This document shows positions 1,432 through 51,213 of a DNA stretch of 51,336 nt, piece after piece. Position numbers and translations under genes: made by a program. Each line of letters begins with the position of its first letter. Position 1 is the stretch's first letter. Under the pieces are notes generated by a model. The model was not told where the DNA came from and did no database searches. It worked only from the letters and a program-made list of their open reading frames with translations. Origin of the DNA: an uncultured Spartobacteria bacterium (GTDB taxonomy: Bacteria; Verrucomicrobiota; Verrucomicrobiia; Chthoniobacterales; Chthoniobacteraceae). Location of the stretch: positions 1-51,336 of the forward strand of contig CAIZLD010000058.1 of the NCBI GenBank assembly GCA_903933715.1, read 5' to 3'.

Positions 1432-1505
1432 CCGGGCTCCCCCTTCCAAGGGACACCATCGGTTCCGACTTTACTTCTCCCTCTGGAACAAGGAAATTTG
1501 CCGAA

Positions 1506-1700
1506 GCTGGCGAGAGCCAGCCGGGACTTGATAACCCCGTCATAAACGGCTGGCAATAGCCGAAATCCTATTGCCGTTTCCGGGCTATATTTATATGGCC
1601 GGGAGGCGGCGGTGCATGTCCAGACCTCACGGTTAAAGACCGTCGCGGCTGTTTTATGACGGCTTATCAACTCCCGGCCTCCTTCGGAAGCATCCGAAGG
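1506..1700. other. Multibranched inverted-repeat element (possible structured RNA or recombination site)
   Basis: This non-coding gap of about 300 bases is dense in complementary arms. A 6-bp hairpin with a GAGA tetraloop lies at 1506-1521. A long imperfect stem of about 27 pairs joins 1522-1550 to 1648-1676, with one bulge at 1655, a small C-rich internal loop and one C.C mismatch. Inside it are a perfect 8-bp hairpin (1552-1559 with 1568-1575), a weaker one near 1584-1599 and a 5-bp hairpin (1629-1633 with 1639-1643). A 7-bp hairpin (1681-1687 with 1694-1700) follows. No T-run follows, so it is not an ordinary terminator. It lies between a broken recombinase and a small membrane-protein gene. 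It could be a folded RNA, a single-strand recombination site or a non-autonomous element; I do not recognise a known family. Confidence 0.6.
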
Positions 1701-3618: not shown

Positions 3619-5247
3619 TTAATCCACAAACCGTTGGGCGATCGGCATGCGCCGCCCGATGCCGAACGCGCGGCTGGTGACTTTGATGCCCGGCGCAGCC
3701 TGGTTGCGTTTGTATTCGTTCAGGTCGACTTTGCGGGCGATCCAGCGCACGGTGGCTTCGTCGTAGCCTTGAGCGATGATGTCCCGCGCGGTGAGATTTT
3801 CCTCGATGTAAAGCGCGAGCACCCGGTCGAGCAGATCGTACGGGGGCAGCGTGTCCTGGTCTTTTTGATCCGGCTTAAGCTCGGCGCTGGGCGGTTTTTC
3901 GATGCTGGAGCGGGGAATCCATTCCCGGTCCCGGTTGATGTAGCGGGCCAGTTCGTAAACCTGCGTTTTGGGAACGTCGCTCAAAATCGCCAGCCCCCCC
4001 GCCATGTCGCCGTACAGCGTGCAGTAGCCGACGGCCAGCTCGCTTTTATTTCCGGTGCTTAGCAGGAGATGTCCGAGTTTGTTGGAGAGCGCCATCAGCA
4101 CCATGCATCGCAGCCGGGGTTGCATGTTTTCTTCGGTCGTATCCTGGGGGAGCCCCTCAAATTCCGGGGCGAGCAGCGACTGGAAGGTCTCAAATGGATT
4201 TTGAATCGAAATGATCGGGCAGCGGATGCCGAAATTGCGGGCCAGGGCCAGCGCATCGTCGATGCTCCCTTGCGAGGAATATTGCGTCGGCATGGCAACC
4301 CCGTGGACGTTTTCGGCCCCGAGCGCGTGGACGGCAATCGCGGCGGTGACAGCGGAATCGATCCCGCCGCTCAACCCTAATACCACTCCTTTGAAGCCGC
4401 ACTTGCGCAGGTAATCGCGCAGGCCCAGCGAGAGCGCCTCGAACAGTTCCTTGGCCTCCTCTTTGGGCGGGCAGCCGGGGAGCGGCGCGCTTTCGGTATC
4501 GACGATTTGGATCGATTCCGCAAACGCCGGGAGTTGCGCGAGCAGTTGGCCGCCTGCGGCGACCGCCAGGGAGTTGCCGTCGAAAACCAACTGGTCGTTG
4601 CCGCCGACCGCGTTGCAGTAAAAAATCGGGACGTTATGCTGGGCGGCCAGGGCCGAGAGCATTTCGCAGCGGCGCGACGGTTTGCCGAGGCAAAACGGGG
4701 AGGCGCTCAAATTGAGAATCATTTCCGCTCCCGCGCTGATGAGGGCGCACAACGGATCAAACTCATACAAACGCCGGGGCAGGTATTTCTCGGTCCAGAT
4801 ATCTTCGCAAAGGGTGATCCCGATGCGCCGTCCGTTGATGACGACCGGGGCGAGCGTTTCCGCCGGTTGGAAATAGCGGTCCTCGTCAAAAACATCGTAG
4901 GTGGGGAGCAGCGATTTGAAGACGCGCTGGATCGGCTCGCCGCGTTGGAGCACGGCGGCGGCGTTGTGGAAAGGCCGCCCCGAACCGGGGTTGTAATCGA
5001 TATAGCCGACCAGCAGCGGCACTTCGCCCACTTGCGCGTGCAATGCCTCGAGCGCTTCCAGATTGAGCGGCACAAACCGCGATTTAAACACAAGATCCTG
5101 GGGCGGGTAGCCGGTGATGGCCAACTCGGGCGTGAGGACCAGTTCGGCTCCCTGGGCGACGAGTTGACGGTAGGCGGAAACGATTTTGTCCCGGTTCCCG
5201 GAGATATCGCCGACGGTGGGATTAATCTGGGCAAAGCCGATCTTCAT
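3619..5247 (-). CDS. nadE: Glutamine-dependent NAD+ synthetase
   Basis: NadE performs the last step of NAD synthesis, amidating nicotinate adenine dinucleotide with ammonia from glutamine and using ATP. The 542-residue length fits the two-domain form. The N-terminal nitrilase-like glutaminase domain shows the Glu (TPELAITGYPPQDL), Lys (FKSLLPTYDVFDEDRYF) and Cys (GITLCEDIW) of the catalytic triad. The C-terminal synthetase domain has the ATP pyrophosphatase P-loop LGLSGGIDSAVTAA and the family motif STGNKSELAVGYCTLYGD. The start ATG lies 6 bp after the stop of a 58-residue membrane protein, so the two are probably co-transcribed. Confidence 0.96.
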   Translation of the reverse strand: MKIGFAQINPTVGDISGNRDKIVSAYRQLVAQGAELVLTPELAITGYPPQDLVFKSRFVPLNLEALEALHAQVGEVPLLVGYIDYNPGSGRPFHNAAAVLQRGEPIQRVFKSLLPTYDVFDEDRYFQPAETLAPVVINGRRIGITLCEDIWTEKYLPRRLYEFDPLCALISAGAEMILNLSASPFCLGKPSRRCEMLSALAAQHNVPIFYCNAVGGNDQLVFDGNSLAVAAGGQLLAQLPAFAESIQIVDTESAPLPGCPPKEEAKELFEALSLGLRDYLRKCGFKGVVLGLSGGIDSAVTAAIAVHALGAENVHGVAMPTQYSSQGSIDDALALARNFGIRCPIISIQNPFETFQSLLAPEFEGLPQDTTEENMQPRLRCMVLMALSNKLGHLLLSTGNKSELAVGYCTLYGDMAGGLAILSDVPKTQVYELARYINRDREWIPRSSIEKPPSAELKPDQKDQDTLPPYDLLDRVLALYIEENLTARDIIAQGYDEATVRWIARKVDLNEYKRNQAAPGIKVTSRAFGIGRRMPIAQRFVD

Positions 5248-50634: not shown

Positions 50635-51213
50635 ATGCTACTACACAGCGTCAATGACATGAAAACCGCACGAATTCCCAATCAAGAGAATCCCCTGCAA
50701 CAAAACCAAGCCTCCGAAGCATCTCAGAATTATTTTCTTTGGCGGGACGGCATAGAATATGGCCCCTACGACGAAGCAAGCGTCAAGGAATCAATAAAGG
50801 ATGGAGGCATCCCACCCAAAACACTTGGAAGACGAGAATCGGAAACCGATTGGAAACCTATTGAGAAATTGCTTCCTCCAGACAAGCCAATCAAGTCTGA
50901 TGCAGTATCCATCAAAAAACATCGCGTTCAACGCCTCAGTTACAAAAAATTAGGACTTTTTTTTAGCACAATACTCTTATTTGGCGTTTTTGTATTAGGG
51001 TATGTATATTTCAGCAACGCTCCCGCACGCGCATATAATTGCGGGATTATATGTTTAGAAGGAAAGGGAGTCCCCAAAAATGCGACTAAGGCAATAAAAT
51101 ATTTTTTGACAGCAGCTAAAAAAGGGCATGCAAAAGCACAATATCAGCTTGCCAGCATGTATTATACTGGAAATGAGATTGCAGAGAACAAGGAACCGTG
51201 CTTATCCGCTTGA
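50635..51213 (+). CDS. GYF-domain membrane protein with truncated Sel1 repeats
   Basis: The 192-residue product has an N-terminal GYF_2/DUF4339 domain (YFLWRDGIEYGPYDEASVKE), a membrane helix (GLFFSTILLFGVFVLGYVYF) and then Sel1-type repeats, one of them AKAQYQLASMYYTGNEI. The first repeat is complete, but the second ends abruptly in AENKEPCLSA and a stop, whereas Sel1 repeats normally continue for more units. A foreign sequence probably joins near 51190 and cut the gene. The region is AT-rich compared with the core. Starts at 50635 and 50659 are possible. It resembles the GYF protein at the left edge only in its first domain. Confidence 0.7.
   Translation: MLLHSVNDMKTARIPNQENPLQQNQASEASQNYFLWRDGIEYGPYDEASVKESIKDGGIPPKTLGRRESETDWKPIEKLLPPDKPIKSDAVSIKKHRVQRLSYKKLGLFFSTILLFGVFVLGYVYFSNAPARAYNCGIICLEGKGVPKNATKAIKYFLTAAKKGHAKAQYQLASMYYTGNEIAENKEPCLSA

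Follow-up and report, generated by a model that had tools for sequence, protein, structure and literature searches.

The locus and its structured element

The window, by which we mean the whole 51,336-nt stretch of contig CAIZLD010000058.1 that was analysed, begins with an IS66 transposase remnant on the minus strand (1-212) which abuts a serine recombinase ORF (193-1431). The latter had been described as broken in a first-pass annotation and is truncated, with a Recombinase domain and a sub-threshold zinc-ribbon match; the Resolvase domain is missing because of the abutting IS66 remnant. Further along the plus strand is an intact ORF (1736-2272) for a 178-aa protein with a GYF_2 domain (Pfam E 2e-9), a zinc ribbon (Zn_ribbon_3, 6e-6) and a C-terminal membrane segment. 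A second GYF_2-domain gene in the window (50731-50865) is not preceded by an RNA element.

Between the recombinase ORF and the first GYF_2 gene lies a highly structured element. The minimum free energy (MFE) of the RNA from 1450-1735 is -128.7 kcal/mol compared to -91.2 +/- 5.2 kcal/mol for 200 dinucleotide shuffles (z -7.19, with 0/200 shuffles as low), which bears out the strong structure noticed earlier at about 1506-1700, although those bounds have to be redrawn as the conserved unit begins at about 1470 and reaches the ATG at 1736. At the gathering threshold, Rfam recovers two tRNAs from the window and nothing on the element, in agreement with the tRNA part of the earlier claim that this was neither a tRNA nor a usual terminator.

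The left edge of conservation is marked by a promoter-like TTTACT-N17-GAAATT (1470-1498, plus strand, as are all the parts that follow) with a weak match to the -10 box. TTTAC[A/T] is found in 13/13 left ends at a constant spacing to the first hairpin, and this conservation suggests that the site may act as a promoter. The leader itself starts with the GAGA-tetraloop hairpin reported previously (GCTGGC-GAGA-GCCAGC, 1506-1521), which is kept in 12/12 left ends with C-G to U-A changes. It is followed by an address segment, seqA (1522-1546), which pairs with an antisense segment, seqB (1647-1673), in all complete copies and shows compensatory changes. The address proper (1526-1546) is made up of seqA1 (1526-1534), which sits in the loop of a CGGG/CCCG hairpin, and seqA2 (1537-1546). 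A further hairpin, GGCAATAG/CTATTGCC (1547-1576), has two-sided changes in copies L002 and L010 and no T-run; it occupies the place of the terminator found in the phage relatives described below, and its position suggests a corresponding role.

The central part of the leader is an sRNA-Xcc1-like core (1597-1687) closed by GGCCGGGAG (1597-1605) and CTCCCGGCC (1671-1679), and this contains seqB, divided into seqB2 (1647-1662) and seqB1 (1663-1673) and assessed by complementarity tests of own versus swapped partners. The hairpin after the core (1677-1704; 88.8% paired, two-sided changes in 2/10 pairs) includes the 7-bp CCTTCGG/CCGAAGG pairing (1681-1687/1694-1700) that had been placed after the long stem. 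A second address complementary to seqB, seqC (1706-1727), consists of seqC1 (GAGTTG, 1706-1711) and seqC2 (AAAACAGCC, 1719-1727), and is abutted by a Shine-Dalgarno site read from the sequence and conserved in the copies (AAGGA, 1728-1732).

The long stem of the first-pass annotation is present in the MFE structure, where 1522-1526, 1528-1534 and 1537-1546 pair with 1672-1676, 1664-1670 and 1653-1662, respectively, giving 22 pairs rather than the 27 or so that had been counted. Given the complementarity between seqA and seqB, this stem is the address paired with its own antisense. It should be noted that the MFE is one among several mutually exclusive pairings, the alternatives being the closing stem of the core, GAGTTG (1706-1711) with CAACTC (1668-1673), and AAAACAGCC (1719-1727) with GGCTGTTTT (1647-1655). 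We rejected the inner hairpin of the MFE (1569-1614) as it lacks the covariation support seen for the long stem.

Copies of the element and their surroundings

A second copy in the same genome (C75:9548-9780) shares 76% identity with the window element and is also strongly folded (z -5.8). Our BLASTN search of 57 genomes found matches in the window's genus alone, with one in genome G002 and 13 partial or complete in genome G004, to which a covariance model added two divergent places in G004 (L040 and L050). No copies were found in other genera of the family and order by this search, the first step of which can miss divergent ones, and the element had no BLASTN match among plasmids and phages. 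The exact pattern AGCCGGGAC..AACCCCG produced six matches in genome contigs, none of which were confirmed by the covariance model, and none in viral contigs.

Counted by left ends, G004 has at least 10 dispersed elements, many of them truncated at contig ends or interrupted by an IS110-family insertion (Transposase_20). Several are split at one and the same point, CCGGGAG|CAACTCTCCTAAGG (L012:1-346, L011:1610-1671 and L009:1-10), and copy L010 at a different one; the IS110-family element seems to target this type of structured element. We also note that a terminator-like hairpin occurs as two identical 31-bp direct repeats (L021:4143-4173 and 4652-4682) which enclose the L007 copy and its GYF_2 ORF in a 478-bp unit, as might be left after insertion or duplication; when we sought an empty site for comparison, the right flank of L007 had no match in relatives.

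In the window's own genome, both copies are followed directly by a Shine-Dalgarno-like site and then by the ATG of a GYF_2-domain protein. At least six related 3' halves in G004 precede short GYF_2 ORFs, the ORF downstream of the divergent L040 is of another type and begins like a signal peptide, and the G002 copy is followed by a different small ORF; most copies with a readable 3' flank are directly before a start codon. The second own-genome copy lies 3' of a tyrosine integrase near a tRNA, and this island (L004:124-9922), with its tRNA, integrase, resolvase, N6/N4 DNA methylase and AAA_21 ATPase, is possibly a defence or restriction island.

These surroundings bear on the suggestion that the element is a DNA site, folded as a single strand for recombination or transposition by the recombinase, or a non-autonomous element that the recombinase mobilises. 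Recombinases adjoin the element in two loci, G004 has many dispersed copies, and one copy with its GYF ORF is flanked by the 31-bp direct repeat, all of which speak for such a site. However, the two recombinases are of different types (serine and tyrosine) and most copies have none beside them, while complete copies run up to a ribosome-binding site and start codon, and the covariation described below follows the logic of an antisense whose target sites lie next to the core. It is the start codon that is the common partner of the element and not the recombinase, and we regard the DNA-site explanation as extremely improbable. What does survive of the earlier proposal is a weaker form of mobility, as indicated by patchy presence, at least 10 copies in one genome, and integrase and tRNA positions. 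Two other known types of element were also considered and set aside: an attC or integron cassette site, judging by position, as the element is 5' of its ORF and the copies are dispersed, and an IscB/TnpB guide RNA, as the element has no match to the HEARO or IS605 RNA families.

Covariation and matched address segments

A 16-row alignment from the genus keeps the structure 94.6% paired, and two-sided changes are seen in 13 pairs (0/500 shuffles). We extended the long-stem alignment to include the divergent L040 and a relative from IMG/VR, L062, and in this, the 17 long-stem pairs are 89.2% paired with two-sided changes in 11/17, and the covariation score is 0.561 compared to 0.188 when shuffled (0/500 shuffles) and no more than 0.129 when slid. 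Homologues therefore exist and keep their pairs through compensatory change, and the earlier view of the element as a novel structured RNA is upheld.

The match between seqA and seqB is well supported, with 9.67 nt of complementarity between own segments compared to 5.03 nt between swapped ones (p 0.0015, six elements) and a duplex z of -7.0 in the window. The weakest link within the window's genus is seqC: the window duplex with seqB has a z of -3.8, but values in other copies range from -0.2 to -2.4, with L040 and L062 not significant, and the difference across the genus is a small effect which comes partly from constant sequence (7.6 versus 6.7 nt, p 0.007).

As seqB cannot pair with seqA and seqC at once within a single molecule, and the MFE structure is the one with the seqA-seqB stem, the leader could also be read as a cis-only switch of the riboswitch or attenuator kind, in which seqB pairs with one or the other segment of its own transcript, a signal shifts the balance and no separate RNA is made. 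We consider this unlikely, as a stable 88-nt RNA is known from relatives of the core (PMC2996969), and addresses that vary and reassort yet stay matched fit private addresses better than a conserved ligand pocket. A ligand riboswitch with such a pocket was dropped from consideration, given that the address parts vary freely, as was a type III toxin-antitoxin system, for which no tandem repeats were seen.

Relationship to sRNA-Xcc1

The core was recognised in a permissive Rfam search by the sRNA-Xcc1 model RF02221 (1597-1687, 34 bits), and across five genomes of the genus the matches to this model at E<=1 are exactly the five complete copies. Neither the window element nor the other copies (31-38 bits) reach the gathering score of 53 bits, and the RF02221 core motif AUACAAUACCC...GGGGAA is absent, with AUGUCCAGACC...GGUUAAAG at the corresponding place. 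As C4 RF01695 gave no match over 1300-1900 at E<=10 either, the window RNA is filed in neither family. Nonetheless, it shares the overall arrangement and the closing stem GGCCGGGAG/CTCCCGGCC with sRNA-Xcc1; these approximately nine pairs around the core are paired in 96.3% of alignment cells, and the stem is matched in the phage members (own 9.78 versus swapped 7.50, 0/10,000, using wide windows and allowing G-U). In contrast, the Rfam model does not include seqA and seqC. In the wider phylum, RF02221 matched 5/388 genomes at E<=0.001, with one above the cut-off, and a BLASTN search of plasmids with an Xcc1 consensus fragment found none.

sRNA-Xcc1 itself has been mapped as an RNA of 88 nt and is described as acting in trans, with numerous targets predicted for it (PMC2996969), and in Xanthomonas cassettes it is found upstream of symE (PMC12444791). 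The window RNA might accordingly be a trans-acting sRNA for chromosomal mRNAs, as was proposed for sRNA-Xcc1, with its position before a GYF_2 gene incidental. Against this, the matched partners flank the core within one and the same locus, and a start codon follows immediately in most copies whose 3' flank can be read; we find this explanation very unlikely.

We scanned IMG/VR with a pattern for the Xcc1 core motif, which identified 86 contigs; 78 places had enough flank, including four loci found earlier, and 37 of these were non-redundant, among them loci from a Stenotrophomonas phage and a Nitratidesulfovibrio plasmid. (The plasmid locus, L108:2502-4464, has an sRNA-Xcc1 of 69.7 bits directly before a 203-aa ORF and a TnpB-like (OrfB_IS605) gene.) The layout of these loci consists of an address placed partly in a hairpin loop, usually a T-run, the core with its antisense, and the address again before or over the ribosome-binding site. 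The longest complementary runs are longer for own than for swapped segments, both for seqA-seqB (8.08 versus 5.83) and for seqB-seqC (7.24 versus 5.57), with 0/10,000 permutations in each case. In 16/37 loci seqA1 is displayed in a hairpin loop, compared to 2.8 expected, and in 30/37 there is a terminator-like T-run between seqA and the core, which the window lacks. In L110, for example, GGAG[ACTCAAAA]CTCC ... GATACAG is followed by a core containing CTGTATC ... TTTTGAG, and 3' of this by ACTCAAAA ... GATACAGGAG and then ATG.

One closed genome, G326, has five near-identical Xcc1-like leaders (L100 and L104-L107), paralogues which differ mainly in two address segments that are reassorted between copies and matched within each. 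All of them have almost one and the same sequence where seqC would be expected, so that in this genome seqC does not vary with the address. Each of these leaders precedes the same short ORF start (MSFLKS...), with differing sequence beyond.

The Xcc1 module of phage contigs is often followed by an antirepressor gene (Rha, Bro-N or KilA-N/P22_AR_N), and in one viral contig (L191:1793-2642) isrK/c4-a1b1, C4 and sRNA-Xcc1 are found in series before a KilA-N/P22_AR_N antirepressor gene. Together with the matched addresses, this suggests that sRNA-Xcc1 is a C4-type device. In the open-access papers searched we did not find sRNA-Xcc1 named together with an antirepressor, and it was named with C4 only in one annotation table.

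Proposed mechanism

We think it probable that the element is the leader of the 1736-2272 gene and encodes an antisense RNA similar to C4 and P4 CI that represses this gene. The transcript would begin just before 1506 and bear seqA, partly in a hairpin loop, the sRNA-Xcc1-like core with seqB, and seqC by the ribosome-binding site. The core (approximately 1597-1687) may then be cut out, or accumulate, as a short RNA able to pair with seqA and seqC of further leaders, both its own and those of an incoming sister element that shares its address. Such pairing would lead to an early transcript stop and/or a block of ribosome binding, and in our proposal the GYF_2 protein stays off as a result. The data show the structure and its covariation, the matched seqA-seqB segments in homologues, the seqA-seqB-seqC pattern in the phage relatives, and the placement of copies before start codons; from these we infer repression as the direction of regulation, and likewise the transcription start, processing and trans action of the window leader.

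If this is correct, then sRNA-Xcc1, which has been taken for a virulence-linked trans sRNA, would be a self-addressed antisense switch of the C4/P4 CI kind, and its target could be read from its own locus by the matching seqA and seqC. It would also extend the mechanism from proteobacterial phages to the chromosomes of another bacterial group, add GYF_2 proteins as a new class of target, and provide natural sets of interchangeable two-part RNA addresses on which specificity could be tested, with five available in a single genome. More tentatively, and with rather less confidence than in the leader itself, we suggest that sRNA-Xcc1 and the window RNA could form a separate and widespread branch of the C4/CI type with modular two-part addresses, in which the copies in the window's genus would have multiplied across chromosomes, each privately addressed to its own GYF_2 or other gene, as mutually orthogonal immunity or toxin-antitoxin-like sets.

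Comparison with C4 and P4 CI

C4 RNA, represented in Rfam by C4 (RF01695), c4-a1b1 (RF03163) and isrK (RF01394), is released by RNase P from a longer precursor, and of its antisense loops one partly covers the ribosome-binding site while the other provides specificity (PMC5320573). The window RNA resembles C4 of P1 and P7 in that its antisense core is carried in a leader and has two antisense segments, with a matching site upstream, a candidate one at the ribosome-binding site, and a GG start at the closing stem, and its phage relatives precede antirepressor genes as C4 does. It differs in the sequence of the core, in being chromosomal and multi-copy in the genus, and in its target, as the window gene encodes a GYF_2 protein and not an antirepressor.

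P4 CI RNA pairs with seqA upstream and seqC downstream of itself to bring about termination (PMC4825925). The window leader likewise has seqA upstream and a candidate seqC downstream of the antisense core, and in the phage relatives there is a terminator-like T-run between seqA and the core, whereas the window element has no T-run there; the likeness to P4 is one of layout. Of the pairings common to C4 and P4 CI, the match of the antisense to an upstream site in the same leader is present here (p 0.0015 for own versus swapped segments, 0/500 shuffles for covariation), while that to a downstream site at the ribosome-binding site is seen in the window, is a small effect in the genus, and is clear in the phage relatives. 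The window RNA is best described as a distant relative of sRNA-Xcc1 that probably works by the same logic as it and C4, and what we have found looks like a variant of a known antisense-leader design that has not been described before in this bacterial group.
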